Source: Gemmatimonadota bacterium | Lineage (GTDB): Bacteria; Gemmatimonadota; Gemmatimonadetes; Longimicrobiales; Gaopeijiaceae | Length of the DNA stretch: 48,927 bases | Direction of reading: 5' to 3' | NCBI GenBank assembly: GCA_009840215.1 | Contig: VXOC01000151.1 | Span: 1-48,927, forward strand | In this document: piece by piece, positions 1 to 35,481 of the stretch | Layout: each line of letters opens with the position of its first letter | Numbering within the stretch: position 1 is the stretch's first letter | Position numbers and translations under genes: made by a program | Notes under the pieces: generated by a model | The model's input: only the letters and a program-made list of their open reading frames with translations | What the model was told of the DNA's origin: nothing | Databases searched by the model: none

Positions 1-2085
1 CCTCTCCAGCTCCGCCCTCACCTCCCCCGCACTCTCCTCGCTGATCGGATACAGATACACCGCATACAGCGCGACCGCCGACGCCACCAGCGGCACGAAC
101 GCATCATAGAACCGCAGCCAGAAGATCGTCCCTTCGGGCTGGTTCGCCCCCAGCGCCGGATCCAGCCCCGTCGAGAAGAGCAGGAACCCGCCGACCAGGA
201 TCGCACCGCTCTGGCCGAGCTTCACCATCCACCAGAAGACCGATCCGAACATTCCCTCGCGCCGCTCGCCGGTATGGAGTTCGTCCAGGTCGACCACGTC
301 CGCGATCATCGATCCCATCAGCGTGAACAGTCCGCCCAGGCCGAAGGCGAGGAACGGGGCGGGGAGCAGTGCCAGCATGGGCGCTTCGGGCGTGTAGCAG
401 AACCACTTCAGCGCGTAGCCCAGCATCGAGATGCTCGTCGAGACGAAGAAGGCGTTCTTCTTGCCGATCCGGGTCCCCAGCCAGGTCACGATGGCGATCA
501 CCAGGAAGCCGGTGACGGTGCCCAGCGTCCCGACCACGCCGGCCAGGCCCGCCCCTTCGGCCACGTTCCCCCCGGCGACGTAGAAGGCGAACAGCCAGAA
601 CTGGAAACTCGAGATCATCATGAAGCTGTTGAACATCAGGAAGGTCGCGATGCAGAGCAGCAGGAAGGGGCCGGTCTTCAGCGTTTGCCAGAGACCCCGC
701 AGGAACTCCATCACGCTCTCGCCGAAGGTGGGGCCGACCGCCGGCGCATCCGTCCCGCGTCCCCCGGAGCCTGGGCCGCGCGTACCCGCCTTCGCCCCCG
801 CGCCTCCCTTGAGCACGCGCTCGCGCAGGAAGATCGCGGGCAGCACGCCCAGCGCGATGGTCGTCACGCAGATCGCCAGCGCGAGGAACCGGGCCCCGTC
901 CATCTGGTTCCGGAACCACGCCGCGTTGGTCACGATCACGAGGAACCAGGGCCCGATCACGAACACGGTGTTCGACACGAAGTTCTGCACGCCCATCAGC
1001 CGCGTGCGCTCGTTGTAGTCGGGGGTGAGTTCGTAGCCGAGCGCCACCCACGGCGTCGCGAAGACGGTGTAGGCGAGGAAGAAGACGAACGAGCCGATCA
1101 GGAAGTACCAGAAGTACGCGCTCTGGCTCCAGCCTTCGCCGGTGGGCTCCGGGGTCCAGACGTCCAGGTGGAGGTGCGTCATCCCGCGGGCGTCGACGGG
1201 TGTCTCGCCGAAATCGATCGCGGCGAAGCGGAGGCCGGTGTAGTGCTTGACTTCGTCCCCGCCGGCCTCGGCGTCCCCCACCTCGGCCTCATCCCATTCG
1301 GTGGACCAGAACTGGACGGGGACGTCGTCGTAGGCGCCGCTGAAGAACGAGATCACGTCCTCGGGGGGGACGGTGGGCGTCGGCGCGGCGGCGGCGGGCG
1401 CGTCTACACCCTCGGCGTCCCGTCCGGAAGGCTCCGCCCGGGTCGCGTCGTCGCTGCGGTAGAGATAGACGTTGTCGACGTAGACCTCGGTCAGGTCACC
1501 CGAAATGAGGATCTGCGCCAGGTGTTCCCGGGCGGAAAGCCCCTCGAAATCGTCGAGCGGCACGTCCACGCTCGCCCAGCCGCCGGTGAACAGCGCCGGG
1601 GGAAGGATGACGACTTCGTCCTCGACGTCGTCGATCGCGTCGACCGTCACGATCCCCTTCAGCGATTCCCCCAAACCCTCCACGAACCCGGCCTGCTCGC
1701 CGGTCTCCTCGCCGCTGTAGACGCCGTCGGCCCCGTAGTCGACCAGCTTGACCCGCAGCTGCGTCGGCGCCGGCATCTGCCAGAGCAGCGCGAAGACGAT
1801 CCCCGCCGCGATCGCGCCCACGAAGAGGAACGGCCGCCGCCGTCCCCACCGCGACTTCGTCTTGTCCGACACGAAGCCGACGAGCGGATCGGTCAGCGCG
1901 TCGAAGAAGCGCGGCAGGCTTCCCAGCAGGCCCACGGCGCGGAAGTCCATGCCCAGCGCCAGCGTCAGCACGGCCATCATGTTGCCGATGCCCTGCGCGA
2001 GCAGGTTGTTCACGAAGCCGCCGATCCCGTAGACGACCTTGTGCGGGAACGGGATGCGGTCTTCGGGAGCGGTCCGGTGGCTCAC
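1..2085 (-). CDS. GPH-type MFS sugar:cation symporter with inserted permuted binding module (3' end off window)
   Basis: The reading frame is open from a GTG at 2085 to the left edge (695 codons, no stop), so the C-terminus is missing. Residues 1-105 and from about 317 onward form a glycoside-pentoside-hexuronide (MelB-like) symporter. Visible signatures are FDALTDPLVG and SDKTKSRWGRRRP after TM2, then YELTPDYNERTRLMG, and later DELHTGERREGMFGS. Such carriers import glycosides with Na+ or H+ across the inner membrane. Residues about 107-316 are foreign to the family and match the repeated module of the two upstream lipoproteins, with its halves in reversed order (separate entry). By MFS topology the insertion lies in the periplasmic loop between TM3 and TM4. 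The start is 3 bp after the GH16 stop, so it is the last visible gene of the operon. Glucan oligosaccharide as substrate is inferred from GH16. Confidence is high for the family, moderate for the substrate. Confidence 0.9.
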   Translation of the reverse strand, partial: MSHRTAPEDRIPFPHKVVYGIGGFVNNLLAQGIGNMMAVLTLALGMDFRAVGLLGSLPRFFDALTDPLVGFVSDKTKSRWGRRRPFLFVGAIAAGIVFALLWQMPAPTQLRVKLVDYGADGVYSGEETGEQAGFVEGLGESLKGIVTVDAIDDVEDEVVILPPALFTGGWASVDVPLDDFEGLSAREHLAQILISGDLTEVYVDNVYLYRSDDATRAEPSGRDAEGVDAPAAAAPTPTVPPEDVISFFSGAYDDVPVQFWSTEWDEAEVGDAEAGGDEVKHYTGLRFAAIDFGETPVDARGMTHLHLDVWTPEPTGEGWSQSAYFWYFLIGSFVFFLAYTVFATPWVALGYELTPDYNERTRLMGVQNFVSNTVFVIGPWFLVIVTNAAWFRNQMDGARFLALAICVTTIALGVLPAIFLRERVLKGGAGAKAGTRGPGSGGRGTDAPAVGPTFGESVMEFLRGLWQTLKTGPFLLLCIATFLMFNSFMMISSFQFWLFAFYVAGGNVAEGAGLAGVVGTLGTVTGFLVIAIVTWLGTRIGKKNAFFVSTSISMLGYALKWFCYTPEAPMLALLPAPFLAFGLGGLFTLMGSMIADVVDLDELHTGERREGMFGSVFWWMVKLGQSGAILVGGFLLFSTGLDPALGANQPEGTIFWLRFYDAFVPLVASAVALYAVYLYPISEESAGEVRAELER
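1138..1767 (-). other. Circularly permuted glycan-binding-like module inside the MFS gene
   Basis: This segment encodes residues about 107-316 of the symporter. It begins in the middle of the module at RVKLVDYGADG, continues through AREHLAQILISGD and VYVDNVYLY (the normal C-terminal half), crosses a linker with APTPT, and ends with DVISFFSGAYDDVPV, STEWDEAEV and MTHLHLDVWTPEPT (the normal N-terminal half). In the neighbouring lipoproteins the order is DVIS...WTPD followed directly by FRVKLVDFG...VYVDNVYLR, and the inter-repeat linker also contains APTPT. The permutation point is therefore the WTPD/FRVKLVD junction. Flanking symporter sequence (WQMP before, EGWSQSAYFWYF after) would join into an ordinary TM3-TM4 loop if the segment were removed. 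The C-terminal half is about 15-20 residues longer than the canonical copies and is acidic. Confidence 0.85.
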
Positions 2086-2088
2086 GGA

Positions 2089-2904
2089 TCAGTCGGCCCG
2101 GTAGACGCGCACCCAGTCGACGAGCATGGCCTGCGGGAAGGTCGTGGACTCGTTGGGCGGTCCGACGAAGGTGCCGCCCACGGCGACGTTGAGGAGGATG
2201 AAGAAGGGGTGGTCGAAGACCCACTCGCCGCTCGGTTCGCCGCGGCCCACCCGGTGGTAGAGCTGCCCGTCCACGAACCACTCGATGCCCGCTTCGGTCC
2301 ACTCGACGGCGAAGACGTGGAAGTCGGTGTCGAAGCGGCCGCCCGACAGGAAGTAGCGGGCGGTGATTCCACCGCCCCCGTGGTAGCCCGGCCCATGCAC
2401 GGTGCCGTGTACGGTCGACGGCTCCTGGCCGCGGTATTCCATGACGTCGATCTCGCCGCACTGGGGCCACCCGACAGACTCGAAGTCGGCGCCGAGCATC
2501 CAGAAGGCGGGCCAGATCCCCTGTCCGGTGGGCAGCCTGATGCGCGCCTCGAAGCGCCCGTACGCCTGGTCGAAGAGACCCTGGGTCTTGATCCGCCCCG
2601 AGGTGTAGGCGCTTCCCATGTAGGATTCCCGGCGCGCGGTGATCGCCAAGTTGCCGTTGCCGTCGAGTGACACGTTCTCGGGGCGGTCGGTGTCGTACTC
2701 GAGTTGCCGGTTTCCCCAGCCGGTGCCGATGTCGAAGGTCCAGTTGGCCGCGCTGGGTAGCTGTCCGGCGGGGCCGTCGAAATCGTCGCTCCAGGTGAGG
2801 GTCCATGTGCCCTCCGTGTCTCCGTCGCAACTGCACAGGATGGTGGGGACGAGGAGCAGGGGTGCGAGGATGGGGATGGGGGAAGCGCGCCGGGTGACGT
2901 TCAC
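2089..2904 (-). CDS. GH16 family endo-beta-glucanase (laminarinase-like), secreted lipoprotein
   Basis: The 271-residue product has a signal peptide with Cys24/Cys26 (ILCSC), suggesting lipidation, followed by a single GH16 jelly-roll domain. The catalytic signature GEIDVMEY is intact, with E151 as nucleophile, D153, and E156 as acid/base. WPAFWML, GRFEARI and the C-terminal MLVDWVRVY strand are also typical. GH16 enzymes of this sort hydrolyse beta-1,3 or mixed beta-1,3/1,4-glucans by a retaining mechanism; laminarin is the likely substrate in a marine setting, but agarase or lichenase specificity cannot be excluded. The start ATG overlaps the stop of the ROK gene by 4 bp, and the symporter starts 3 bp downstream, so the three are translationally coupled. 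No extra binding module is attached; the separate lipoproteins probably serve that role. Confidence 0.93.
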   Translation of the reverse strand: MNVTRRASPIPILAPLLLVPTILCSCDGDTEGTWTLTWSDDFDGPAGQLPSAANWTFDIGTGWGNRQLEYDTDRPENVSLDGNGNLAITARRESYMGSAYTSGRIKTQGLFDQAYGRFEARIRLPTGQGIWPAFWMLGADFESVGWPQCGEIDVMEYRGQEPSTVHGTVHGPGYHGGGGITARYFLSGGRFDTDFHVFAVEWTEAGIEWFVDGQLYHRVGRGEPSGEWVFDHPFFILLNVAVGGTFVGPPNESTTFPQAMLVDWVRVYRAD

Positions 2905-4136
2905 GATGCACTCACGCCCGGGAAGAGGCGTGGATCGGCCAGGGCGGCGGCGAGCACGTGCGTGGCGGCCCCCAGTGCGGTGGCCCGCGGCCCGAGCTCG
3001 CTGGTGCGGATTCTGGAGGCGGCCGCCGAAGCGACCAGCGTCCGGCTGGCCACAGCCTCGCTGAGCGGAACGAGCAGTCGGTCGCCGAGCCGGGCCAGAC
3101 TCCCGCCCACGATGACCGATCCCGGGTTCATGAGGTTCAGGACTCCCGCGATCACGATGCCCAGGTTGCGCGCGGCCTCGTCCACGACCTTGAGCGCGAG
3201 GGGATCGTCGGCGAGCGCGGCGTCCTCGAGGGCGCGGATGTCGGCGGCCGCGCCGTTAAGGACGCTCTGTGGGAATTGGGGAAGCAGGGCCCGAATGCGC
3301 GACAACAGCGGCGCGGTTCCCACGAAGGTCGCCAGGCAGCCGCGGTTGCCGCACACGCACTCGGGTCCCCTCGGGTCGATGGCCACGTGGCCGATCTCGC
3401 CGGCCACGCCGGTGGCGCCGCGGTAGATCTCCCCGCCGATCATCAGCCCGGCCCCGATCCCGGTCGCCACCTTGAGGTACGCGAAGTCGTCGATCCCCAC
3501 CGCCTTGCCCCAGTGGTGCTCCGCGAGCGCGCCCAAGTTGGCGTCGTTGTCGACGAAGACGGGTACCTGGAAGTGGTCGCGAAGCTCCCCCAGCAAGTCG
3601 AAGGCGTGCCACGCGGGCAGGATGCGTTCCAGAATCCGGTACGGCGACCCGGGATCGACCGGACTCGGGACCGCCACGCCGATCCCCATGGGCGTAGGCA
3701 CGCCGTTGCCGCGCGCCGCGAGACACGCTTCACCCAGCCTCACCGCGAGGTCGGCGGTGCCCTGCGGGTCGCTGCGGACCGGATGGTCCTCCTCGCGCCA
3801 CTCGAGGATGCGGCCGCGCAGGTCGGTCAGCGCCACCGAAACGTGCGCCGCACCGATGTCCACCCCGAGGATCACGCTCGCGCGATCCCTGAACCCGATG
3901 AGGATGGGCCGCCGTCCCCCCCGGCTCTCCCCGCTCCCCACCTCCTCGATCAGCCCGGTGGGCAACAGCCGCCCCACAACCTCGGAGATCGTCGACCGGG
4001 AGCGCCCCGTGTGACGCGCGATCTCGGCCCGCGACACGGCTTTTCGCCGCCACACGAACCCGAGGACCTCTGTAGCCAGACCTCCCTCGCGCCCCACGCC
4101 CGGCCGGGACGACTTCGCGCGCCGAACGGTGGTCAT
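2901..4136 (-). CDS. ROK family transcriptional repressor
   Basis: This 411-residue protein has an N-terminal winged helix (residues about 30-70, SRAEIARHTGRSRSTISEVV) followed by a ROK sugar-kinase fold. FVDNDANLGALAEHHWG carries the conserved Asp of the sugar site. GEIGHVAIDP and the cysteine motif CVCGNRGC give the structural zinc site of ROK proteins. The Glu that normally follows that motif (GCLE) is Ala here (GCLATF), which fits a regulator rather than an active kinase. Like XylR, NagC and Mlc, it should bind a palindromic operator and release it on sugar binding. It sits inside the glucan operon, 16 bp after the preceding gene and overlapping GH16, so autoregulation through the palindrome at 8443-8471 is likely. 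The ligand, perhaps glucose or a laminari-oligosaccharide, is inferred. Confidence 0.9.
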   Translation of the reverse strand: MTTVRRAKSSRPGVGREGGLATEVLGFVWRRKAVSRAEIARHTGRSRSTISEVVGRLLPTGLIEEVGSGESRGGRRPILIGFRDRASVILGVDIGAAHVSVALTDLRGRILEWREEDHPVRSDPQGTADLAVRLGEACLAARGNGVPTPMGIGVAVPSPVDPGSPYRILERILPAWHAFDLLGELRDHFQVPVFVDNDANLGALAEHHWGKAVGIDDFAYLKVATGIGAGLMIGGEIYRGATGVAGEIGHVAIDPRGPECVCGNRGCLATFVGTAPLLSRIRALLPQFPQSVLNGAAADIRALEDAALADDPLALKVVDEAARNLGIVIAGVLNLMNPGSVIVGGSLARLGDRLLVPLSEAVASRTLVASAAASRIRTSELGPRATALGAATHVLAAALADPRLFPGVSAS

Positions 4137-4152: not shown

Positions 4153-6354
4153 CTACTTGCGCAGGTACACGTTGTCCAGGAACACCGTGTTCGGATCGCC
4201 CGAAATGATCAGCTGCGCCAGGTGCTCCCTCGCCGCGAGGTTCGTGAAGTCCGAGAGCGCGATGTCGAAGCTCACCCATGCACCCGTGGCGAGCGCCGGA
4301 TCCGAGGCCGCCGTCAGCGTGATCTCGTGTTCGGTGTCGTCGCCTCCCCCGAAGGCCCCGTCGCCCCCGAAGTCCACCAGCTTGACGCGGAACGCCGCCG
4401 GATCGGCGGTGTTGTCCGGGGTCCAGAAGTCGAGGCGGAGGTGGGTCATCTCCGTGGCGTCCACCGTCGCCGAGGTGAACTCGATGCCGGCGTAGACCAG
4501 GTTGGTGTACTTCTTGGTGGCGTTCCCCGAGATATCCACGTCCTCCACGTCGGCCTGGTCCCAGTCGGCGGACCAGGTGTCGACCGTCACGTCGGTGTAG
4601 GCGTCGCTGAAGAACGAGATGACGCTGTCGGCCGGGTCCGTCGGAGTCGGCGCCGGTTCGCTCGGCTCGGTGAGTTCCTCGAAGAAGTAGATGTTGTCCA
4701 GGAAGACCGTGTTGGGGTCGCCGGATATGATCAACTGGGCGAGGTGTTCCCGCGCCGCGAGGTTCGCGAAGTCTGCCAGCGCCAGGTCGTAGCTGACCCA
4801 CCGGGCCGTGGCCAGGGCCGGATCCGAGTTGGCGGTCAACGCGACCTCGTGCTCCGTGTCGTCGCCCCCGCCGAAGGCGCCGTCGGCACCGAAGTCCACC
4901 AGCTTGACCTTGAACGCCGCCGGATCCGCCGTGGGATCGGGGGTCCACAGGTCGAAGTGGAAGTGCGTGGCGGCGGTGGCGTCGATGGGCGCCGAGGTGA
5001 ACTCGATCCCCGCGTAGGACAGGCCAGTGTACTTCTTCACCGCGTCTCCGGCGATCTCCACGTCGTCCACATTCGCGACATCCCAATCCGCCGACCAGGT
5101 GTCCACCGTTACATCGTCGTAGGCGTCGCTGAAGAGCGAGATCACCTTGCTCGCCGAGTCGGTGGGCGTCGGCGCCGGCTCGGTCGGTGCGTCGGGCCGC
5201 TCGCCCTCCCGCAGGTACACGTTGTCCACGTACACCGTGTTCGGATCGCCGGAGATGATCAGCTGCGCGAGGTGTTCGCGCGCCGTGAGATTGGTGAAGT
5301 CCGTCAGTTCGAGGTCCAGCTGCACCCAGGCCTCCGAGGCCAGCCCCTCGGCGGCCGTGATCGCGACCTCGTGCTCGCTGTCGTCGTCGCCGCCGAAGGC
5401 GCCGTCCGCGCCGAAGTCAACGAGCTTGACCCTGAACGCCGTCGCCGTCGTCTCGTCGGGCGTCCAGATGTCCATCCGCAGGTGCGTCATGTTCGCCGCG
5501 TCCACGGTCGCCGAGGTGAACTCGATCCCCGCGAAGACCAGGTTGGTGTACTTCTTGGCCGAGTCGCCCGCGATGTCCACGTCCTCCACATCGGCCTGGT
5601 CCCAATCGGCCGACCAGGTGTCGACCGTCACGTCGTCGTAGGCGCCGCTGAAGAACGAGATGACGTCATCGGCCGCGTGGGTTGGCGTCGGTGGTCCCTC
5701 GGTGGGCGCGGGCTGGGCCATGACCGTCACGGCTGCGCTCGCGCTGTGGCCGCCCGCTGTCGCGGTGACCGAAGTCGAACCGTTGGCCACCGCCGTGACG
5801 AGCCCGGCCGCGTCCACCGTCGCGACCGCCTCGTCCCCCGAGGACCAGCTCACCGTGGCGTTCGCGATCACGTTCCCGTTCGCGTCCGTCACCTCCGCCG
5901 TGAGCTGCGCCGTCTCGCCGAGTTCGGTCAGGGGCACCGAGTCGGGCGCGACCGTGATGGCGGCAGCCGCCTGCTCCACCGTGACCGTCGCGGTTCCGCT
6001 CGCGTTGCCGGACGTTGCGGTGATCGTCGCCGTGCCGTTGCCCGTCGCGGTGACGAGCCCCGTCGCGTTGACCGTCACGACCGACGCGTCCCCCGAGGAC
6101 CAGGCGACGGACGCACCCGACATGACGTTGCCGTTCTGGTCGCTGACGGTGGCAGTCAGCTGGACGGTCTCGCCCAGGGCCGAGAGCGTGGAAGCCGCGG
6201 GCGTCACCTCGACCGTCGTGGGCACGGGGACCGGTTCCGGAGGTATGGGGTCGTCACCGCACGCCAGCAACGCACACGTAACGAGTGCGGCGGACACGGT
6301 GGACCAGGATCCCGGCGACCGCCGGAGCAGTGAGCGATGGCTTCGCGAATGCAT
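4153..6354 (-). CDS. Secreted lipoprotein: two Ig-like (Big) domains and three glycan-binding-like modules
   Basis: The 733-residue product has a lipoprotein signal ending in LLAC (Cys32) and a Pro-rich tether. Two bacterial Ig-like domains follow (about 45-127 and 132-212, both with VSDQNGNV/VTDANGNV and TGLVTA/AGLVTA-type strands). Three tandem ~160-residue modules follow at about 229-382, 403-558 and 574-733. Each module runs from DVISFFSxAYDDVTVDTWSADWD through AGIEFTS, WTPD and FRVKLVDFGADGAFGG to AREHLAQLIISGDPNTVxxDNVY, and linkers contain APTPTD. The modules look like beta-sandwich carbohydrate-binding domains and resemble, from memory, modules attached to marine Bacteroidota GH16 enzymes; binding is inferred, not shown. 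The very high similarity between copies suggests recent duplication. It lies 20 bp after the next upstream lipoprotein in the same operon and probably acts as a surface or periplasmic glucan-binding protein. Confidence 0.85.
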   Translation of the reverse strand: MHSRSHRSLLRRSPGSWSTVSAALVTCALLACGDDPIPPEPVPVPTTVEVTPAASTLSALGETVQLTATVSDQNGNVMSGASVAWSSGDASVVTVNATGLVTATGNGTATITATSGNASGTATVTVEQAAAAITVAPDSVPLTELGETAQLTAEVTDANGNVIANATVSWSSGDEAVATVDAAGLVTAVANGSTSVTATAGGHSASAAVTVMAQPAPTEGPPTPTHAADDVISFFSGAYDDVTVDTWSADWDQADVEDVDIAGDSAKKYTNLVFAGIEFTSATVDAANMTHLRMDIWTPDETTATAFRVKLVDFGADGAFGGDDDSEHEVAITAAEGLASEAWVQLDLELTDFTNLTAREHLAQLIISGDPNTVYVDNVYLREGERPDAPTEPAPTPTDSASKVISLFSDAYDDVTVDTWSADWDVANVDDVEIAGDAVKKYTGLSYAGIEFTSAPIDATAATHFHFDLWTPDPTADPAAFKVKLVDFGADGAFGGGDDTEHEVALTANSDPALATARWVSYDLALADFANLAAREHLAQLIISGDPNTVFLDNIYFFEELTEPSEPAPTPTDPADSVISFFSDAYTDVTVDTWSADWDQADVEDVDISGNATKKYTNLVYAGIEFTSATVDATEMTHLRLDFWTPDNTADPAAFRVKLVDFGGDGAFGGGDDTEHEITLTAASDPALATGAWVSFDIALSDFTNLAAREHLAQLIISGDPNTVFLDNVYLRK

Positions 6355-6373: not shown

Positions 6374-8374
6374 TTACTGGTTGTTGGAGTCGGTGTTCTG
6401 CATGGACGGGGCCGCGGACGCGGGCCGTCGGAAGTAGATGTTGTCCACGTACACGGTGCTCAGATCCCCCGAAATGATCAGCTGCGCGATGTGCTCGGTC
6501 GCGGCGAGTCCGGTGAAGTCGGCCAGCGGCAGGTCCAGCCGCACCCACTCTCCCGTAGCCAGCCCCTCGCCGGCCGTGATCGTGACCTCGTGCTCGCTGT
6601 CGTCCCCGCCGCCGTCCCACACGCCGTTCGCGCCGAAGTCCACCAGCTTTACCTTGAACGCCGCCGCCGTCTCGTCCGGCGTCCAGATGTCCATCCGGAA
6701 GTGCGTCATGGCGGTGGCGTCGAGGGTCTGTGACGTGAACTCGATGCCTGCGAAGACCAGGTTCTCGTACAGCTTCACAGCGTCCCCCGCGACCTCCTCA
6801 TCGGCCACGTCGGCCACATCCCACTCCGCCGACCACGTGTCCACCACCACGTCCGCGTACGCGTCGCTGAAGAGGGAGATCACATCCGCCGCCGCGTCGG
6901 TCGGGGTCGGTGCGGGGTCGGTGGGCCCGGTCGGATCGATGATGTCGCCCCTGAAGAAGAAGATGTTGTCCAGGTAGACGATCGCGCTGCTGCCCGAGAT
7001 GATCAGCTGCGCCAGGTGGCCGCGATTCGCCAGGCTGCGGAAGGCGTCCAGCGGAATGTCCAGGACGTTCCATTCTCCCGGCCTGAGGGACGGCGTCGAA
7101 ATCGGACTGAGGGTGACCTCGTGCTCGCTGTCGTCACCGCCGCCGAAGACCCCGTTCCCGCCGAAGTCCACCAGCTTGATGCGGAAGGCGTCGACGTCGT
7201 TGCTCCACAGGTCGACGTGGAGGTGCGTCATCGAGGTGACGTCGATCGTCGGGGAGGTGAACTCGATACCCGCGAAGGCCAGGTTGCTGTACTTCTTGAC
7301 CGGGTTTTCCGCAATGATCACGTCCGCCACATCGGCCTGGTCCCACTCCGCCGACCAAGTGTCGACGGGCACGTCGTCGTAGGCGTCGCTGAAGAGGGAG
7401 GTCACGTCCTCGGCGGGCACCGCCGGCACCGGAGGCGCGTCCGAAGGGGGCCGCTCGACGATGATGGTGAGCGATCCCGACGCGGGGGTCGATCCCAGCA
7501 TGGCCGTGATCGTGGCGGTGCCCGGCTGGAGCAGGGTGATCGTCCCGTCCGGTCCCACTGTCACGACATCGGGGTCCGACGTGGCGAAGGTGAAGTACGC
7601 CGGTGCGGCGAAGACCGTCACGTCGGTCCCGTTCACGTCGAAGGTCACCCGTGTCCCTTGAACCGTCAGCGTGCCGCCCGTCTCGCCGCTCACCGTCCGC
7701 GTCGGGATCTCCGGGCGGGGGTTGATGATCGTCCCGAGCCGCTCGAACTGCACATCGTCGAAGTAGACTTCATAGCCGACCTCGTATTCCGACGCTTCCG
7801 CGACCAGGAAGAGCCCGGGCTCCCGGGTCAGCACCGAGGGGAGGGGCAGAGGGATCGCGTACTTCGTCCAGCGGGTCGAGAGGGGCAGGCTGTGAAGCTC
7901 GGCAGGGAAGCGCGAGGTGCCGGTGTTGTCGTTGCCGATGCCGACCGTGTTCAGGGTGGCGGCGGTACTGGCCCTGGCCCAGAAGGTGAGCGCGTCGAAC
8001 CCGCTGAGGTCGCGCGGGACCGTTGCGTGGAACGCCCCTCCGGCGAAGCCGCCCGAGGGATCCGTCGGCGCGGGGATGTCGAATCTCAGGGCCGCGGTGC
8101 CGCGGTAGACCTCTTCGTACTCGATGTCGAGCGCATCCACCTTGGACCCGGCGAAGGCCGAGTACCGGACGGACGGCCCGAAGTCGTCATGGAAGACCTC
8201 CGGCTCGGCGGGGTAGGGTGCGGGCTCGAGCATGTCGAGGTCGCGTCCGCAGGCGGCGCCGAGGAGGAGCATTGCGGCTGCTGCTGCCTTTTCCCCGCGC
8301 AAGCGTCCGACCGACCCCTGTTCCCTGCGGCCTCGTTGCACGCGCGGACCCCTGTCTGACCTGCTCGCTGTCAT
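6374..8374 (-). CDS. Secreted lipoprotein: N-terminal jelly-roll-like domain, Ig-like domain and two glycan-binding-like modules
   Basis: This is the first gene of the glucan operon. I place the start at ATG 8374 (666 residues) because an in-frame start at 8446 would lie inside the promoter palindrome; GTG 8341 is another option. The hydrophobic segment AAAAAMLLLGAAC gives a lipobox Cys about 42. It is followed by a galactose-binding-like domain (EVFHDDF to EVYFDDVQF), a Big-type Ig domain (VTVGPDGTITLLQPGTATI), and two copies of the DVISLFSDAYxDV...DNIYF module. The first copy is more divergent (LWSNDVDAFRIKLVDFGGNG) and the second is close to the copies in the next gene. The architecture recalls SusE/SusF-like surface glycan-binding proteins, but no SusC/SusD pair is in view. 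A role in glucan capture is inferred from context. Confidence 0.82.
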   Translation of the reverse strand: MTASRSDRGPRVQRGRREQGSVGRLRGEKAAAAAMLLLGAACGRDLDMLEPAPYPAEPEVFHDDFGPSVRYSAFAGSKVDALDIEYEEVYRGTAALRFDIPAPTDPSGGFAGGAFHATVPRDLSGFDALTFWARASTAATLNTVGIGNDNTGTSRFPAELHSLPLSTRWTKYAIPLPLPSVLTREPGLFLVAEASEYEVGYEVYFDDVQFERLGTIINPRPEIPTRTVSGETGGTLTVQGTRVTFDVNGTDVTVFAAPAYFTFATSDPDVVTVGPDGTITLLQPGTATITAMLGSTPASGSLTIIVERPPSDAPPVPAVPAEDVTSLFSDAYDDVPVDTWSAEWDQADVADVIIAENPVKKYSNLAFAGIEFTSPTIDVTSMTHLHVDLWSNDVDAFRIKLVDFGGNGVFGGGDDSEHEVTLSPISTPSLRPGEWNVLDIPLDAFRSLANRGHLAQLIISGSSAIVYLDNIFFFRGDIIDPTGPTDPAPTPTDAAADVISLFSDAYADVVVDTWSAEWDVADVADEEVAGDAVKLYENLVFAGIEFTSQTLDATAMTHFRMDIWTPDETAAAFKVKLVDFGANGVWDGGGDDSEHEVTITAGEGLATGEWVRLDLPLADFTGLAATEHIAQLIISGDLSTVYVDNIYFRRPASAAPSMQNTDSNNQ

Positions 8375-8442
8375 CCTTGCATCCCGGCTTGGTCGGATTC
8401 CCCCGGAGCCCGGCAACCTGCGGAGCCACGGAACACCACGCC

Positions 8443-8494
8443 CCACTTTGTTCGGCTACCGAACAAAGTGGAATGGCCGACCGCACGCTGTCAA
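8443..8494 (-). promoter_or_regulatory. Operon promoter with palindromic operator (probable ROK site)
   Basis: CCACTTTGTTCGG (8443-8455) and CCGAACAAAGTGG (8459-8471) are perfect 13-bp inverted arms around a 3-nt centre. On the minus strand a consensus -35 TTGACA lies at 8494-8489, and the palindrome begins 17 nt after it, exactly where the -10 should be (weak CACTTT). A repressor bound here would block RNA polymerase. The core TTTGTT/AACAAA resembles the operators of XylR-type ROK repressors, and the operon encodes a ROK repressor. The site lies 69 bp before the proposed first start codon. Assignment to this ROK protein is inference. Confidence 0.7.
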
Positions 8495-19177: not shown

Positions 19178-19424
19178 AATCAACCGGTTAGCTTCAGGCA
19201 GGTCTGGAACGCCAAAGGCTCCCAGGTTGCAGTTTGGCCGGAATCGACATTCCAGCGCCCAATCTTCGGGGCGTTAATGAATGCTCGGCTCCGGGAAAGT
19301 CCCGGATTCGGGGCAACCGGTCCTGCACGCGGGAGCGCCAGGGCCACAGGCAGGAGTGGACGATGATGCGGACGGAAAGGCACGACGATCGGTTGGGGGT
19401 TGCACGGTCCAGGGTTTCACGGCC

Positions 19425-20072
19425 GTGAGCGCGGAACTCATCGCGGTTCTGGGCGTCGGGGTAGCCCTGGCGGGGTTGAACTGGCGGATGAGCAGTGTGC
19501 TGCGCCGGGAGATGGGAACGTTGCGAGCGGACACGCGACATGACCTTGCGGGTTTGCGCGAGGAGATGCGGATCGGGATTGCCGCGGTGCGCGCCGAGAT
19601 CGGAGGTTTGCGCGAGGAGATGCGCTCCGAGATTGCTGCGGTGCGCTCGGAGATCGCAGGTCTTCGAGATGAGATGCGGACCGAGATCGGGGGTTTGCGC
19701 GAGGAGATGCGGACCGAGATCGGGGGTTTGCGAGATGAGATGCGGACCGAGATCGGGGGTCTTCGCGAGGAGATGCGCTCCGAGATCGCAGGGCTTCGGG
19801 ACGAAATCGCGTCTTTGCGAGGGGACTTCGGTGCGGAATTCACTGTCCTTCGCAGCGAAATCGCCGGATTGCGCACAGAGTTCAAGGGCGAGTTGGTCTC
19901 ACTTCGCGGCGAGTTCCGGGAGGACATGGCGGAGTTTCGGGCCGAGACGCGGACCAGCATTGCGGGTGTGAGGACCGATATGAAAGAGGGGTTCCGCCAG
20001 ATGGACGTGCGCCTTCGATTCCTGGAGGAGCACTTCTTCCTGGACCAGTCAGCGAAGCAGGCGTCGGCCTGA
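19425..20072 (+). CDS. Membrane-anchored hendecad coiled-coil protein
   Basis: The GTG at 19425 (VSAELIAVLGVGVALAGLNW) is chosen because the open frame upstream to 19281 is compositionally odd. The product has 215 residues. A short N-terminal hydrophobic segment of about 18 residues is followed by Arg/Glu-rich 11-residue repeats such as GLREEMRTEIG and GLRDEMRTEIG, mixed with 7-residue steps (AVRSEIA). It ends with a non-repetitive amphipathic tail VRLRFLEEHFFLDQ. The 11-residue period predicts a right-handed or nearly straight coiled coil. It resembles DUF1640/CCDC90-like or Bdr-like repeat proteins only in architecture. No enzymatic motif is present; a structural or membrane-tethered oligomer role is a guess. 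Confidence 0.75.
   Translation: MSAELIAVLGVGVALAGLNWRMSSVLRREMGTLRADTRHDLAGLREEMRIGIAAVRAEIGGLREEMRSEIAAVRSEIAGLRDEMRTEIGGLREEMRTEIGGLRDEMRTEIGGLREEMRSEIAGLRDEIASLRGDFGAEFTVLRSEIAGLRTEFKGELVSLRGEFREDMAEFRAETRTSIAGVRTDMKEGFRQMDVRLRFLEEHFFLDQSAKQASA
19671..19802 (+). repeat. Four tandem 33-bp coding repeats
   Basis: Units start at 19671, 19704, 19737 and 19770, each beginning GAGATGCG. The first three share GAGATGCGGACCGAGATCGG and differ by a few bases at the end; the fourth has several changes. Each encodes one 11-residue hendecad of the coiled-coil protein. More degenerate units extend upstream to about 19545. The near identity indicates recent expansion and possible length variation between strains. 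Confidence 0.85.
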
Positions 20073-28611: not shown

Positions 28612-30981
28612 CTACGGGATCAGCACCCTCGGGGACCGCTTCACGAAGAACACGCCCTCCTTGCCCGAGGTCACCACGATGATCCCGCTCTCGAAGTACG
28701 GGTAGTTGCTCCACGACCCGTCGAAGCCGGGCGCGTCCTCGCCCCACGGCACCGTGTCGAAGAAGCCGATCTCCACCGGATTCTCGCGGTCGGAGATATC
28801 CAGCACGCGAAGGCCGCTCACGTAGTTGGACTGGTACATGAAGTCGCCGCGGATGTACAGGTTGTGGTCCGAAGAGGTGTTTTCCGAGAAGTGCTCCTTG
28901 ACCAGGATCGGGTCATCCAGGTCCTTCACGTCCCACACCAGCGTGCGGGTGTTCGAGACCATGCCTTCCAGCTCGTCGAGCTCGTCGTTCATGTAGAAGT
29001 ACTCATGGGCCTCGTCGATCCAGCCCTGGTGGGAGTAGACCACGTTGGGGTACGTGCTCATCGCCAGTGCGACAGGGACCCTCTTGTCGGTGACATCGGC
29101 GATGCTCAGCGCGTTCTCGTTGGACCCGAAGCAGATCTCCTTGCCGCGGTGCTCGGTGTCCGGCCCCTCGTAGATGATGCACATGGCGTCGTGGCTGTAA
29201 CCGGTGCTGGCCCGCCCGGTGGCGGCGTCGGCGAAGCAGCCCGCGAAGACCGGATTCCGTGGATCGCGGATGTCGATCATGTGGAGACCGCCGCCGCAGG
29301 TGTCGCCGCCGCCGCTGGATCCCACCGAGTACGCGAAGCCGGTGGCCTCGTTGATGACGATGTTGTGGGCGCTGTGGATCCCGTCGTAGTGCGCGGTTTC
29401 CTCGAAGGTGACGGGTTCCCCGGTGGCGTCGCGCAGCTCGGTGAGGTCGAAGATCTGCATGCCGTGGCGGCCCGAGTTGTCGGAGACGATGAAGGCGTGG
29501 TCGGCGTAGACCTTGATGTCGCGCCATGTGCTCGGGATTGCCCCCTCGGTCAGCAGCAGATTGCCGGCGTTTCTGGGGTGCGCGGGGTCGCTGAGGTCGA
29601 CGAAGGAGGTACCGTCGTAGCGGCCCACGATCGCCCACTCCGTCCCCGTGACCGGGTCGGTCCACCCCCACACGTCGTTGACCTCGGCGCCGCGCCCGCC
29701 GCCCAGCTGCTGCACCGGCAGGAACGACACGATGTCGACGTTGGCGCAGGTGAAGACATCGGCGGCCCCGTCCTGGCAGGCGACCTCGTCACCGGTGATC
29801 GGGTCGAGGCCGGCGACTTCGCTGGCCACGCGGACCCCCCGGGTCCAGCCGTTTCCTTCGCGCTCGATGATCGCTGCGGTGCCCAGTCCGTAGTCGTCCC
29901 CTTCCAGACCCACCACCCCCACGCCCGAACCCATCGCGAGGACCGACCCCATCTGGTCACCCGGGGACAGCCCATCCACGGAGAACTTCGTCATCGCACC
30001 CCAGCCGCCGCCTCCGGGCTCCGGCGACATCACGTAGTAGCGTCCCTCGAAACCTCCGGCTCCCGGCGCCGCGATCCAGATGTCGTCTCCGCTGATCGCA
30101 ACGGCGCTCCCGAACCGGGTCCCGCTACCTCCGTCGAAGGGTCGGTAGGTCTCTGCCGGGCTCCAGTCACCCGAAGACTCGTCGAGGACGTAGCGATGAA
30201 CCGCCCCGACCAACCGGTCCTGCCATGGTGCTCCGATCAGGGCCGTGCCGTCCCGCATCGCCAGCGCCGACCCGAAGCTGACCCGATCCGTGCCCTCCGG
30301 TTCCAGCTTGGCGGTCTCGGACCAGCTTCCGTCCGTCCCGCGGCGAAATGCGTAGACGGCGCCCCGGCCCTGGTTCTTCCGTACAGTCCCTATCAACGCG
30401 TAATCTCCGTCAACCGCCAGCGCTTGCCCGAACCAGTCCTGCGGCTCGGCGTCGCTCGCCATCAGCTTGGCTGTTTCGCTCCACCGGCCGGAATCGTCGC
30501 GCGTCAGCACGTACACCGCACCGCGACCTTCGTCGTGGCCCCAGGCGGCGACCAGCGCCACGCCGTCCCCCACCGCCATGGCACGCCCGAAAGCCTCGCC
30601 GTCGACCACGTCGCTGGCGGAGATCTTGGCGCTCTCGGTCCAGTCCCCCGCCTGGTTGCGCCGGAAGACGTAGACCGCACCCCGGGTGTCGTCGATGACC
30701 GTCGATCCGACCAGGAGGTCGTCCCCCACCAGCCCAAGCGCCCGCCCGAAGTGGTCCCCGTCTGCCGCGTCCGAGGCGGAAAGACGCTGCACTTCGGCCC
30801 AGCCGCCTCCGGTCCTGCGGTAGACGTACACGTATCCCGGGGCGCGTTCGTTGAGTGATTCGCCGATCAGGACATCGCTCCCGCTCAGGGCGGCGGAGCT
30901 TCCGTAGCCCTGCGCCGAGACCTGCGTCGGCTGGAAGACGAAGACCACCGACGCGAACAGGGGAAGAATGGACAGTCTCAC
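28612..30981 (-). CDS. Secreted FG-GAP/LVIVD propeller protein (choice-of-anchor B type), copy 1
   Basis: The proposed start is GTG 30981, with GAGGTG just upstream (GTG 30990 also fits), giving 789 residues and a signal peptide ending VSAQG. The N-terminal half contains about six FG-GAP-like repeats, recognisable by FGxALAxxGDxALIG and GAVYVFRR/GAVYAFRR. The C-terminal half is the choice-of-anchor B region with LVIVD-like strands: WGWTDPVTGTEWAIVGRYDGTSFVDLSDPAHPRNAG, VYADHAFIVSDNSGRHGMQIFDL, HNIVINEATGFAYSVG and GLRVLDISDRENPVEIGFFDT. It is a close paralogue of the next gene upstream. It is probably surface-exposed or periplasmic and has no known enzymatic role. Confidence 0.87.
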   Translation of the reverse strand: MRLSILPLFASVVFVFQPTQVSAQGYGSSAALSGSDVLIGESLNERAPGYVYVYRRTGGGWAEVQRLSASDAADGDHFGRALGLVGDDLLVGSTVIDDTRGAVYVFRRNQAGDWTESAKISASDVVDGEAFGRAMAVGDGVALVAAWGHDEGRGAVYVLTRDDSGRWSETAKLMASDAEPQDWFGQALAVDGDYALIGTVRKNQGRGAVYAFRRGTDGSWSETAKLEPEGTDRVSFGSALAMRDGTALIGAPWQDRLVGAVHRYVLDESSGDWSPAETYRPFDGGSGTRFGSAVAISGDDIWIAAPGAGGFEGRYYVMSPEPGGGGWGAMTKFSVDGLSPGDQMGSVLAMGSGVGVVGLEGDDYGLGTAAIIEREGNGWTRGVRVASEVAGLDPITGDEVACQDGAADVFTCANVDIVSFLPVQQLGGGRGAEVNDVWGWTDPVTGTEWAIVGRYDGTSFVDLSDPAHPRNAGNLLLTEGAIPSTWRDIKVYADHAFIVSDNSGRHGMQIFDLTELRDATGEPVTFEETAHYDGIHSAHNIVINEATGFAYSVGSSGGGDTCGGGLHMIDIRDPRNPVFAGCFADAATGRASTGYSHDAMCIIYEGPDTEHRGKEICFGSNENALSIADVTDKRVPVALAMSTYPNVVYSHQGWIDEAHEYFYMNDELDELEGMVSNTRTLVWDVKDLDDPILVKEHFSENTSSDHNLYIRGDFMYQSNYVSGLRVLDISDRENPVEIGFFDTVPWGEDAPGFDGSWSNYPYFESGIIVVTSGKEGVFFVKRSPRVLIP

Positions 30982-31076
30982 GATTATCACCTCATTCCTT
31001 TGGGGTTGCCCGGCCCCCTGGTGGCGGGGTATCCGGACCTGCATGACGGGCGGCCGAAATGCCGCCCCCAATTCTA

Positions 31077-33527
31077 CTACGAAACCGCCGGCGGCCGCTT
31101 CTTCAGCACGAAGAGCCCTTCCTTGATGCTCGACACGATGATCACGCCGCTCTCGAAGTACGGGTAGACGCTCCACGCCCCCGCGAACCCCGGCTTGTCC
31201 TCACCGAAGGGCACGGTGTCGAAGAACCCGACCTCGCGCGGCTCCTCCGGGTTCGAGATGTCCAGGATCCGCAGCCCGCTCAGGTAGTTGGCCTGGTACA
31301 TAAAGTCGCCGAGCACATACAGATTGTGGTCCGATGCACCGGTTGTCCCGAAGTGCTCCCTGACCAGCACCGGGTCCTCCAGCTCGCTGATGTCCCACAC
31401 CAGGGTCCGCGTGCGGGACACGCTTCCGGCGAGTTCGTCGGTCTCGTCGTTCATGTAGAAGTAGCGGTGGTCATCCGACAGCCATCCCTGGTGCAGGTAT
31501 CCGGCGCTGGGGTAGGTGACGCTGGAGACCGCCACCGGGGCCACCTTGTCGGTCACGTCCGAGATCGAGAGCGAGTTCTCGTTGGCTCCAAGGCAGATTT
31601 CGCGGTCCCGGTACTCTTCGTCGGGGCCCTGATAGCGGACGCACTGCGCGTCGTGACTGTAGCCGGTGCCCATGTTCCCCGTCGCAGCGTCCGCGAAGCA
31701 CCCCGCGAAGGTGGGACTGCGCGGGTCCCGGATGTCGACCATGTGAAGACCTCCGCCACATGTCTCACCGCCGCCCGAAGCGCCCACGACGTACGCGAAG
31801 CCCGTCTCCTCGTTGATCACGATGTTGTGGGCCGAGTGGATCCCGTCGTAGCGGGCGGTTGCCTCGAATGTCGCCGGGGGGTTGCTCACATCGCGCAGCC
31901 GGGTGAGGTCGAAGACCTGGACCCCGTGCGCCCCGGCATTGTCCGCCACCACGAAGGCGTGATCACGGTAGACCTTGATGTCGCGCCACATGTTGGGCGT
32001 CGCCCCTTCGGTGAGGGGCAGCTCGCCCAGGTAGACCGGGTTGGCGGGATCGGTCAGGTCGACGAAGGTCGTCGCGTCCGCACGCCCCATGATGGCGTAT
32101 TCGCGCCCCGTTTCCGAGTCGGTCCATCCCCACAGGTCGTTGGCGATCGCGCCGCGCTGGCCGCCCAGCGCATGGGTGGGCACGAAGGCGACCAGGTCGA
32201 CATCGCCGCATGCGAATCCGCCCGCCTCACCCCCCTCGCACCCGATCTCGCCGCCGACGAGCGCCTCGAGTTCGCCTCCCTCGTCCACGATCCTGCCCTC
32301 GGACCGCCACCCGTCCGGGGTCCTGCCGAAGAGGAACCCGACCCCCTCGAAGAAGTCGGCGCCCGGCGCGCCCACCACCGCCACATCCCCGCCCAGCGCA
32401 ACGGCGAGACCGTAGAAGTTGAACGGACCCCCGGGGCCGAACTCGGCAACCTGGTCCCACTCCCCGGACTCGCCGCGGCGGAACGCGAATCCACCGCCGA
32501 CACCCCCGCCCGCCAGCGGCGTCCCTGTAACGAGGTCGTCCCCGGAGACGGCGACGGCCATGCCGAACCCGGAAGCCTGAACCGGCGTGCCCGGCTGGAT
32601 CGTGTGTGCATGCGTCCACTCCGCGCCCGTGCCTCCCCCGGGCCGGGTGAAGTGATAGACGGCACCGCTCAGCTGGCCGCCGAGGGGCGCCCCCGCGAAC
32701 ACCTCGCCCTGCGACACGACCACGCTGGCTCCCATGGAGGCCGGGACGAGTTCCGGTGGTTCGAGGCGTATGATCGGTGTCCACGTCACCGTCGCCCCGC
32801 TGAACAGATACACCGACCCCTGTTGGAGATCGGGAACGCCTGTGCCCGGGATCAGCGAGATCGCCCCGCCGGGCGCCCCGACCGCCAGCAAGTCTCCCTC
32901 CACGTCGAGCGAGGTGCCGTATTGCGCGCCGTCGCCCAGGTCGGCGGGCTGGAGAACCCCGCTCAGCGCGTACCCGGCTGCTCCGGCCCGGAAGACGAAC
33001 ACTGCGCCCCTTCCTTCGTCGGCCCCGGGTGCACCGACCAGGATGTCGGTCCCGTTCGTGGCCACCGCGGCCCCGAAGCTGGCGCCCTCCGTCGCATCGT
33101 CCCAGGCGAGGCGTTCGCTCAGCGACCACCCGCCGCCCGCCCGGCCGTACACGTATACGGCACCCGTCCCTTCACCGGGTGCCCCGACCACCAGCACGTC
33201 ACCGCTCACGTCCAGCCCTTCTCCGAAGCCCGTGGCGGCCTCGGTCACGGGCGTCGGCAACGTCGCCGTCTCCGTCCATCCGTCCCCCGTGCGTGTGAAG
33301 ATGTGTACCCCCGCGGCGCGGTTCCCGGGCATGGGGAAGATCGCGAGACCGCCGGGCCTCCCGACGAAGATCTCGTCGCCCTGCACCACGACGCTGGCCG
33401 AAAACGCGGTCGCGGCGGCCGGAGTCGGGATGGCCCCGGCGCTCGTCTGCCCTGCGGCCGCCGGGGCAGTGCAGACGAGAAGTGCCACGGCGATGCTGGC
33501 GTGATGTCCGGCGAGGCGGATATGCAT
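31077..33527 (-). CDS. Secreted FG-GAP/LVIVD propeller protein (choice-of-anchor B type), copy 2
   Basis: The ATG at 33527 gives 816 residues with a clean signal peptide (HHASIAVALLVCTAPAAAGQ); the frame upstream to 33854 is antisense to the next gene. Layout is as in copy 1: FG-GAP-like repeats (FGEGLDVSGDVLVVGAPGEG, GAVYVYGRA) and then the LVIVD region (WGWTDSETGREYAIMGRADATTFVDLTDPANPVYLGELPLTEGA, HAFVVADNAGAHGVQVFDLTRLRDV). The C-terminal halves of the two copies are much more alike than the FG-GAP halves. A 95-bp gap separates the copies, both on the minus strand, so co-transcription is possible. The divergent spacer to 33706 shows no clear promoter. Confidence 0.87.
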   Translation of the reverse strand: MHIRLAGHHASIAVALLVCTAPAAAGQTSAGAIPTPAAATAFSASVVVQGDEIFVGRPGGLAIFPMPGNRAAGVHIFTRTGDGWTETATLPTPVTEAATGFGEGLDVSGDVLVVGAPGEGTGAVYVYGRAGGGWSLSERLAWDDATEGASFGAAVATNGTDILVGAPGADEGRGAVFVFRAGAAGYALSGVLQPADLGDGAQYGTSLDVEGDLLAVGAPGGAISLIPGTGVPDLQQGSVYLFSGATVTWTPIIRLEPPELVPASMGASVVVSQGEVFAGAPLGGQLSGAVYHFTRPGGGTGAEWTHAHTIQPGTPVQASGFGMAVAVSGDDLVTGTPLAGGGVGGGFAFRRGESGEWDQVAEFGPGGPFNFYGLAVALGGDVAVVGAPGADFFEGVGFLFGRTPDGWRSEGRIVDEGGELEALVGGEIGCEGGEAGGFACGDVDLVAFVPTHALGGQRGAIANDLWGWTDSETGREYAIMGRADATTFVDLTDPANPVYLGELPLTEGATPNMWRDIKVYRDHAFVVADNAGAHGVQVFDLTRLRDVSNPPATFEATARYDGIHSAHNIVINEETGFAYVVGASGGGETCGGGLHMVDIRDPRSPTFAGCFADAATGNMGTGYSHDAQCVRYQGPDEEYRDREICLGANENSLSISDVTDKVAPVAVSSVTYPSAGYLHQGWLSDDHRYFYMNDETDELAGSVSRTRTLVWDISELEDPVLVREHFGTTGASDHNLYVLGDFMYQANYLSGLRILDISNPEEPREVGFFDTVPFGEDKPGFAGAWSVYPYFESGVIIVSSIKEGLFVLKKRPPAVS

Positions 33528-33705
33528 GGTGATTCGATTCCCGGGAATGGGGGCGTGCGTGTGGCCGGTGGCCCGGCCGCGGCTTCGATGTTCCGGCACA
33601 ATAACCAAACCGGGCACGCCAGCCCACCGGGTCATCGCGTTCCGGTCGGCGGCGCGGTATCGTGTCGTGACCGGAAGCGCGCATTCCCGCGACACCTGAG
33701 GGGCC

Positions 33706-35481
33706 ATGACCACACGGCGCGTTCGTTCACTCGCTCTCGGCGCACTGGCCGTCGCCGCCGCATTCCCGGCGTGCGGCCCGGGCCCCGAGCCCATCCACCT
33801 CGCGACCGCCCACCAGATGGGCCCGGTTGCATACCGTGACCCCGCCGGCGGCATCTCACCCGATGGGCGCCTCCTCGCCTACACCCAGGGCCGCGAACTG
33901 CTGGTGCGGGATCTCGCCGGGGAGGAGGTCCGCAGCCTTGGCCTCGCTCCCAGCCAACTCCGCTACGTCACTTGGCACCCGGACAGCGACCGGTTGCTCG
34001 TGCACGAGCGTTCCTTCGACAGGCGCCGGCAGGCGTGGTTCGAGTACGACCTCGAGAGCGGTGCCAAGCAGACGATGTGGGGTGCGGGGTACTCATCCGG
34101 TCTGCCGACTCCGTCCACCCTGCTCGAGCTGAGCTGGGCCCCCGACGGCGGATCGCTGGTCGGTGTCGCCAGGAGCGCGCGGGTTTCCCTGGTCTGGCGC
34201 ATTAGCGCCGACGGCAGCGTCGGCGCGATCGTAGGCGAGAGCCTCCGTCTTTCCTACCCGGTGGTTTCGCCCACGGGCGAGGTGGCGTGCATCGAGCGGT
34301 ATGGAGGCCGGCAGCACCTCCGTTACCCGTGCGCGGACCCCCGTGTACACTGGCTGGACGGACACGAGCCGTACGGTCACGTCGCGTTCTCCGCCGATGG
34401 CGCCACCATACACTACGCCGCACCGAATGACGACGGCGTCCTCGAACTCTGGTCCAGGCCCGTGGGAGGCGGTGAGGCCCGGCAACTGGCATCCGCCGAA
34501 CGCGACGCCTACGGACCCGCCGTCACCTCCGACGGAGATGTCGTCTACCGCAGCCAGCACTACATGGTTTCCCTGTCTGCGGTCCCCGCCGACGGTGGAC
34601 CGGTCCGCCGCATCACCACCTTCCAGTCCGAGACCCCCACCTGGAGTCCCGACGGCAGCAAAATCTCGTTCACCTTCGGCCGCTGGCGCGTCGCCACCGA
34701 CGATGTGCGGTACCCCGACATCGACCAGCACATCGGCACCGTGGACGCGACCTCCCCATCACCGAAGAGCGCCCCCGACCGCATCATCCGCAGCTCCTAC
34801 TCCGAGGACCAGGGCATGCACTGGTCGCCGAACGGCCGCTGGATCACCTACCACAGCCACATCGGCGGCACCGACGACATCTTCCTCATCCCCGCCGACG
34901 ATCCCTCCAACCCCCGCATCATTTCGGAGGAGGGCCACGAGACCGGCTGGCCGCGCTGGTCGCCCGACGGCCGCTGGATCGTCTTTCCCAGCTACACGCG
35001 AGACGCGGCGGGGGCGCGCAAGAGCTTCCTGTACGTGATTCCGATCGACGAGGAGAGCGGCGAAACGCTGCCGCAGCGGGCGGTGGAGCTGGGGGACTTC
35101 CGGCACGACGCGCTCCAGGCCGAGTGGACGCCGGACTCCGGGGGACTGGTCTTCGAAGCGGCGGAGGGGGCGGGGAGGAAGGCGCTATACAGGGTCCCGC
35201 GCGATGGCGGCACCCCCGAGCGCTTTCACGAGTGGACCTCCGACCAGGTGCATTCGGGGATCGCGGTGTCGGCGGACGGTGCGTGGGTCGCGTACATCGG
35301 TCCGGACAGCGCCGGGTTCTTCCAGGTGTACCGGGTGCCGCTGGGCGGGGGAGAGGCGGAGCAGATGACGGTGGATCCGGTGCGGAAGACCCAGCCGGCG
35401 TACGATCCGACAGGGAACTGGCTTGCGTACACGGAGTTCAGCTACGAGGCGCGCTTCTGGCGACTGCAGAATGTCAGGTAG
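33706..35481 (+). CDS. TolB/WD40-like beta-propeller lipoprotein
   Basis: The 591-residue protein has a signal peptide with lipobox-like FPAC (Cys about 24). It contains successive PD40/WD40-like blades: GGISPDGRLLAYTQGRELLVRDL, LSWAPDGGSLVGVAR, PTWSPDGSKISFTFGRW, MHWSPNGRWITYHSHIGGTDDIFLIPADDP and PRWSPDGRWIVFPSYTRD. TolB-like propellers mediate protein or ligand contacts. There is no C-terminal peptidase domain as in DPP-type proteins. It is transcribed divergently from the FG-GAP/LVIVD genes, which may share its extracellular setting. Function is unknown beyond this. Confidence 0.87.
   Translation: MTTRRVRSLALGALAVAAAFPACGPGPEPIHLATAHQMGPVAYRDPAGGISPDGRLLAYTQGRELLVRDLAGEEVRSLGLAPSQLRYVTWHPDSDRLLVHERSFDRRRQAWFEYDLESGAKQTMWGAGYSSGLPTPSTLLELSWAPDGGSLVGVARSARVSLVWRISADGSVGAIVGESLRLSYPVVSPTGEVACIERYGGRQHLRYPCADPRVHWLDGHEPYGHVAFSADGATIHYAAPNDDGVLELWSRPVGGGEARQLASAERDAYGPAVTSDGDVVYRSQHYMVSLSAVPADGGPVRRITTFQSETPTWSPDGSKISFTFGRWRVATDDVRYPDIDQHIGTVDATSPSPKSAPDRIIRSSYSEDQGMHWSPNGRWITYHSHIGGTDDIFLIPADDPSNPRIISEEGHETGWPRWSPDGRWIVFPSYTRDAAGARKSFLYVIPIDEESGETLPQRAVELGDFRHDALQAEWTPDSGGLVFEAAEGAGRKALYRVPRDGGTPERFHEWTSDQVHSGIAVSADGAWVAYIGPDSAGFFQVYRVPLGGGEAEQMTVDPVRKTQPAYDPTGNWLAYTEFSYEARFWRLQNVR

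Follow-up and report, generated by a model that had tools for sequence, protein, structure and literature searches.

How does an MFS_2 symporter come to hold, between two of its membrane helices, a copy of a module that the neighbouring lipoproteins carry in tandem, and what would the module do there? The question is raised by the 48,927-nucleotide stretch analysed here (the window), the whole contig VXOC01000151.1 of a Gemmatimonadota MAG with 370 contigs. The list of open reading frames contains a tight five-gene cluster on the minus strand, running from 8446 down to the contig edge in the order two-module lipoprotein, three-module lipoprotein, ROK-type regulator, GH16 lipoprotein and MFS_2 symporter, with intergenic gaps of 19, 16, -4 and 3 bases in the same order. 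The features of the cluster are the following.

1..2085, minus strand: MFS_2/GPH-type symporter of 695 aa that begins with GTG and is cut off by the contig edge (PF13347 (MFS_2), 190.5 bits against a gathering score of 27; best structural matches MFSD2A and MelB; homologue L038 93% identical).
1768..2085, minus strand: TM1-TM3 of the transporter, residues 1-106, ending LLWQMPA (predicted helices 13-44, 48-75 and 83-102; alignment).
1450..1767, minus strand: C-half of the module within the transporter, residues 107-212, module positions ~76-157, plus an extra loop at ~121-152 (HMM 75-99 and 95-157; alignment; predicted strands 110-116, 154-160, 171-176, 189-196 and 200-209).
1363..1449, minus strand: linker within the insert, residues 213-241, containing the APTPT also seen between the lipoprotein modules (alignment; omega 0.25-0.96 in 10 pairs).
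1138..1362, minus strand: N-half of the module within the transporter, residues 242-316, module positions 1-75 (HMM 1-75, i-E 3.1e-27; predicted strands 244-248, 268-274, 277-283, 287-291 and 304-310).
1..1137, minus strand: TM4-TM12 of the transporter, residues 317-695 (predicted model; alignment).
2089..2904, minus strand: GH16 beta-glucanase-type lipoprotein of the same cluster (PF00722, 95.1 bits; GEIDVMEY, found by eye, is presumably the catalytic motif).
2901..4136, minus strand: open reading frame that we take, from its sequence, to be a ROK-type regulator (by eye, a similar frame stands at the equivalent place in the insert-free relative L053).
4153..6354, minus strand: lipoprotein P0002, with Ig-like (Big_2) domains and three modules, residues 229-385, 402-560 and 576-733 (Pfam, alignment, module HMM).
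6374..8446, minus strand: lipoprotein P0003, with two modules, residues 346-500 and 520-675 (alignment, module HMM).

Elsewhere in the window, a pair of long neighbouring genes (28612-33854, minus strand) resemble each other by eye and may be a tandem duplication with FG-GAP-like repeats, and an open reading frame at 19281-20072 has many short, almost identical repeats (GGLREEMRTEI...) and probably encodes a coiled coil.

The carrier belongs to the MFS_2/GPH type, outside TIGR00792. It scores 136.2 bits against the 231.35 required by this NCBIfam model, and the insert-bearing L038 (153) and L057 (164) as well as the insert-free L053 (162.7) and L055 (162.3) also fall below that score, so the shortfall does not come from the insert alone. 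The reading frame at 1-2085 has no stop and leaves the contig at its start, with the last residues missing; the homologue L038 ends ~8 residues further. The model of the full transporter, of moderate confidence (24 sequences, mean pLDDT 74.5, pTM 0.73), has twelve long helices, which we read as the predicted membrane spans of a 12-helix MFS fold like that of MelB. Searched as a whole against the PDB, this model matches MFSD2A (8d2t, TMt 0.79) and MelB (7l16, TMt 0.71); the best 50 matches are all membrane transporters, which is uninformative on the insert. D62 and D66 are invariant in the 24 aligned sequences, and we assume that they match the Asp pair of the MelB cation site; cation-coupled sugar transport is a putative function of the carrier. 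The PF13347 match, the twelve helices and D62/D66 are features shared with the GPH:cation symporters (MelB-type, MFS_2, MFSD2A fold), whereas the ~210 residues between TM3 and TM4 are not. The preliminary description had taken this loop to be normally short, and so it is: in every one of the 16 insert-free loci where both flanks match, 0-9 residues separate them, as in L053 (LWQMP-EGRSESYYFW). Counted were the homologues in which each flank reaches E 1e-8; L032 was excluded by hand, and L031 and L033-L037 failed the threshold. Among the distant loci left out, those with an insert search gave no insert hit. The loop between TM2 and TM3 is Arg-rich, which suggests the cytoplasmic side for it and hence the periplasmic side for the TM3-TM4 loop; the argument follows the positive-inside rule and the topology of MelB.

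The insert comprises transporter residues 107-316 (window 1138-1767, minus strand), which read PTQLRVKLVDYGADG...VYVDNVYLYRSD...APTPT...EDVISFFSGAYDDV...WTPEPTG. It had been described as lying between TM3 and TM4 and as consisting of the two halves, in swapped order, of a module repeated five times upstream, and all of this holds: the insert follows the predicted helix 83-102, and the module of ~157 aa is present in three copies in P0002 and two in P0003. Reordered to module order, the insert is 49-56% identical to each of the five lipoprotein modules over 152-155 aligned positions; these modules are 59-77% identical among themselves. Without reordering, blastp aligns the insert to P0002 in a single collinear alignment of 210 columns (45.7% identity, E 3.4e-52) that runs through a linker between modules of this lipoprotein. 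The insert is thus one whole repeat period in a permuted register, which agrees with the earlier proposal that it arose from an array segment cut across one linker. Both of its ends correspond to a cut at module position ~75, and along the insert the module HMM matches with positions 75-99 and 95-157 before it matches with 1-75; the part ending at 157 precedes the part starting at 1-2 in 22 of the 22 full-length insert-bearing frames (the window and 21 others), and the fragment L062 carries the first part only. The insert, therefore, is a circularly permuted copy of the lipoprotein module, with the C-half before the N-half and every predicted strand present. It exceeds a lipoprotein period by a longer linker and by an extra loop of ~23 residues in the C-half (~121-152, window about 1630-1725), which is absent from the five local lipoprotein modules and present, with a predicted helix at 134-145, in the aligned inserts, although shortened in L050. 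In the insertion-site DNA, inspection by eye for microhomology picks out short GC-rich matches, to which we give no weight.

Profile and sequence searches give little to name the module by. Pfam and NCBIfam searches of the insert yield zero matches, the lipoprotein modules of the window have no curated Pfam match, and 82 modules searched against Pfam produce weak matches only (the commonest, ChiC, in 6 of the 82; best E 0.022). A sequence search of the PDB returned nothing better than E 0.099, and the window's lipoproteins, the insert and the 82 modules all stay below the CBM_11 gathering score. The AlphaFold model of a lipoprotein module (mean pLDDT 95.9) has nine strands, and, with this module as the Foldseek query, CBM30 and CBM11 are the best matches (E 3e-6 to 6e-5, TM ~0.6-0.7 by query length; CBM30 1wmx E 3.4e-6, CBM11 1v0a E 6.4e-6). 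The next PDB matches are CBM8, CBM6, CBM28 and CBM29, and rank 23 is the laminarin-binding CBM X584; laminarin-binding CBMs are the subject of Zuhlke 2024, and PDB 8qx6 is presumably a structure from it. The leading matches have 10-16% identity and an rmsd >4 A, and proteins other than CBMs, such as microtubule-associated proteins and an epimerase, are listed as well. The lipoprotein module is accordingly predicted to adopt a CBM-type beta-sandwich fold, with glycan binding as a putative property. It resembles CBM30 and CBM11 in predicted fold and differs from them in scoring below the CBM_11 cut-off, whereas the copy in the transporter is, in addition, circularly permuted and embedded in a carrier. 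In the transporter model, the strands of the insert correspond one after another to module strands 5-9, followed by 1-4 (277-283 and 287-291 taken together). The ten-residue blocks that hold them have mean pLDDT values of 71-93, except for 58 in the block with 154-160; residues 121-154 are below 50, with block means of 32-37 in the extra loop. Two unrelated partial folds, the outcome against which the preliminary description had set its single domain, find no support in this model, which predicts all the strands of a single module, in permuted order.

The contig of this MAG ends within the transporter gene, as could happen in an assembly chimera that joined lipoprotein and transporter sequence. 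Misassembly of this kind, a concern from the start, was looked for and is rejected; we give it practically no credence, because the insert is present in 20 other genomes, three of them single-contig genomes (G001, G021, G044), is just 49-56% identical to the local modules and forms a group of its own. Transporter matches occur in 36 of 98 relatives and the insert in 20 of the 98, the window's genome counted; among 395 Gemmatimonadota genomes searched, 50 match at E 1e-20, and the 21 that bear the insert span two family codes. The inserts of these homologous transporters might have been unrelated to the module and turned out to be the same one. In G005, the insert-bearing gene is split across two contigs, and in G007 (contig 183; also L051) an insert-bearing transporter is broken by a frameshift in the core. 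A pattern scan of contigs from 84,980 species, with one genome per species, which reaches close relatives only, found 15 loci, every one of them titled Gemmatimonadota, Gemmatimonadetes, Gemmatimonadales, Longimicrobiales or Palauibacter. The module was found in 53 of 394 genomes of the class, and these 53 include 47 of the 49 genomes with a transporter match, the remaining two possibly lying outside the module sample.

In the tree of the transporter core, built on 39 rows and 482 columns, all 22 rows with the insert form one side of one branch (support 99/100; the split recurs in 99% of 200 bootstrap trees), so that the distribution takes 1 change and zero losses. The frameshifted L051 and the fragments L062 and L063 (one gene over two contigs) were dropped from this tree, as were the duplicates L027-L029, L064 and L072-L074; L075 was kept though its core is the same as that of L043, and of L065 only the readable part was used. 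When 21 inserts and 82 lipoprotein modules are placed in a quick tree, the inserts again fall on one side of a branch (SH-aLRT 99); drawn midpoint-rooted, this tree shows L057 and L060 beside the modules, but, unrooted, the inserts still occupy one side. The single clade in the core tree together with the separate insert group in the module tree identifies one old insertion, with no sign of later copying between genes. Recent recombination with the local lipoproteins was considered as a source and rejected, given the identity of 49-56% and the separate grouping of the inserts. The tree alone fits both gain and loss; we infer a gain because the most distant row (L071) and a carrier from Emticicia both lack the insert. 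The carriers of Palauibacter and its kin (L043, L045, L049, L075), which have the other family code, nest within the clade of the window family, a sign that the cluster may have passed between these bacteria.

How a whole period could enter the loop in this register can be outlined. A repeat period of the CBM-like beta-sandwich module would have been cut at position ~75 in two successive repeats, and the resulting segment (C-half, linker, N-half) would have entered, in a single event, the short loop between TM3 and TM4 in the MFS_2 symporter of the same cluster. The cut falls between two successive strands, so the ends of the permuted domain would lie side by side and could join TM3 to TM4, and the domain is predicted to fold like a module. 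Alternatively, one repeat might have been excised as a circle through repeat-repeat recombination and integrated by a single crossover in the TM3-TM4 loop, a route that would automatically yield a whole, circularly permuted domain with adjacent ends. This is a conjecture: circle integration fits the whole permuted period, and direct insertion of a linear one-period fragment fits equally.

An insertion that folds could be kept merely for that reason, as a tolerated, nearly neutral passenger. The linker (omega 0.25-0.96) and the extra loop (0.12-0.64) are indeed relaxed, and most of the insert evolves faster than the core: across 10 pairs, omega is 0.04-0.23 in the membrane parts, against 0.07-0.75 in the C-half core and 0.13-0.51 in the N-half, and it is higher than in either membrane part in 7 of 10 pairs for the C-half core and in 9 of 10 for the N-half. 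However, 14 of the 20 half-module values fall within 0.1-0.3, close to the lipoprotein modules (0.14-0.25, 9 pairs), and the insert is kept in 21 genomes with two family codes and with zero losses on the 39-row tree, so that we consider a neutral passenger improbable. The halves of the insert are mostly under purifying selection.

Residue conservation gives a more differentiated picture. Among the 60 columns conserved in the module, 37 are retained in at least 90% of 21 inserts, and six (D17, T18, E50, T52, I138 and T145) are retained in none; S53 is retained in 1 of the 21 and W23 in 13. The lost D17, T18, E50 and T52, together with S53, map to the first long loop and to where the third strand ends. 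By strand alternation, W69, K82, E99, E101, W115, D119 and Q136 probably point out of the core, and each is retained in 19-21 of the 21 inserts. Because six columns are replaced in all 21 inserts, the ligand or the role may have shifted, with the site altered or lost. The insert is thus a maintained yet specialised relative of the lipoprotein modules. With no direct ligand, it could still act as a regulatory or structural lid over the outer mouth of the carrier, or as an oligomerisation domain: it directly precedes TM4, and the predicted helix of the extra loop (134-145) could touch the membrane or the bundle. This appears distinctly unlikely, if less so than neutrality, considering that the extra loop is modelled at block means of only 32-37 pLDDT and is shortened in L050, and that the seven probably exposed residues are retained.

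The company kept by the module outside the phylum bears on its substrate. On plasmid pEMTOL03 of Emticicia oligotrophica (L113 3328-11594), a GH16 protein carries two tandem modules, the best of which is 54% identical to a window module; its CBM_11 match (E 3e-5, 24.4 bits) is below the cut-off of 27. Encoded 4 kb from the GH16 gene is an MFS_2 carrier without the insert (475 aa; identity of 37% over TM4-TM12), and the two make up a compact cluster of beta-glucan type on the plasmid. In Persicobacter, a lipoprotein-like frame of similar build has three modules, by eye. The module on the Emticicia GH16, the nearby carrier and the co-occurrence of module and carrier tie both to the use of beta-glucan, a candidate ligand.

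The reading that we favour, with moderate confidence, is that a whole period was inserted once, folds as a module and most likely holds beta-glucan oligosaccharides freed by GH16 at the mouth of the carrier. The insert would retain, on the periplasmic side, what the neighbouring GH16 releases, and the oligosaccharides so held would raise the local substrate concentration; we infer that the predicted domain may serve as a substrate-capture antenna. The main rival is a docking domain with no sugar binding of its own, which would pair with the modules of the lipoproteins or with GH16 and cluster them at the carrier. Every partner is encoded in one tight gene cluster, the clade-specific changes in conserved columns suit a new partner surface, and there is a precedent in the extracellular domain of PepT1/PepT2, consisting of two tandem Ig-like folds and reported to bind trypsin (PMC4597091). 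Contacts between modules, on the other hand, would be hypothetical, and the carrier, the module lipoprotein and GH16 occur together without the insert in L053 and, among the matches listed, in L055. Docking is, in our estimate, rather unlikely, yet it deserves to be taken more seriously than a lid.

Among the closest known systems are members of other transporter families. The extracellular domain of the PepT proteins sits in another loop, TM9-10, and we know of no permutation and no local donor array in that case. These proteins (POT family, MFS) share with the present carrier an extracytoplasmic beta-sandwich, there a domain of Ig-like fold that is absent from the bacterial homologues (PMC4597091). 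ABC importers with fused substrate-binding proteins have the binding domain built into the importer (PMC8276074); they differ in fold, energy source and topology, whereas here a CBM-like domain sits in a secondary carrier. An MFS carrier with an extracytoplasmic Ig-like domain is, therefore, already known, and the new part is the CBM-like, permuted version. In the titles and abstract beginnings of the open-licence PMC papers listed, we found no MFS carrier with a carbohydrate-binding module or with such a permuted inserted domain, and PMC10469786, on Palauibacterales, contains none of six carbohydrate terms looked for in it.

For one natural circular permutation, the donor-type repeats, the relatives with an empty site and the single origin are all visible, so that the insertion of a domain into a loop of a membrane protein can be traced step by step, and the natural insert-free orthologues make the role of the insert directly testable. 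It is possible, and we put this forward tentatively, that a secondary carrier gained a substrate-capturing module in one step, via a circle, and imports beta-glucan oligosaccharides within one polypeptide in the manner of binding-protein-dependent importers. Should the insert bind sugar, it would show that an MFS symporter made of one polypeptide is able to bring along a binding module of its own, a job usually done by separate binding proteins.
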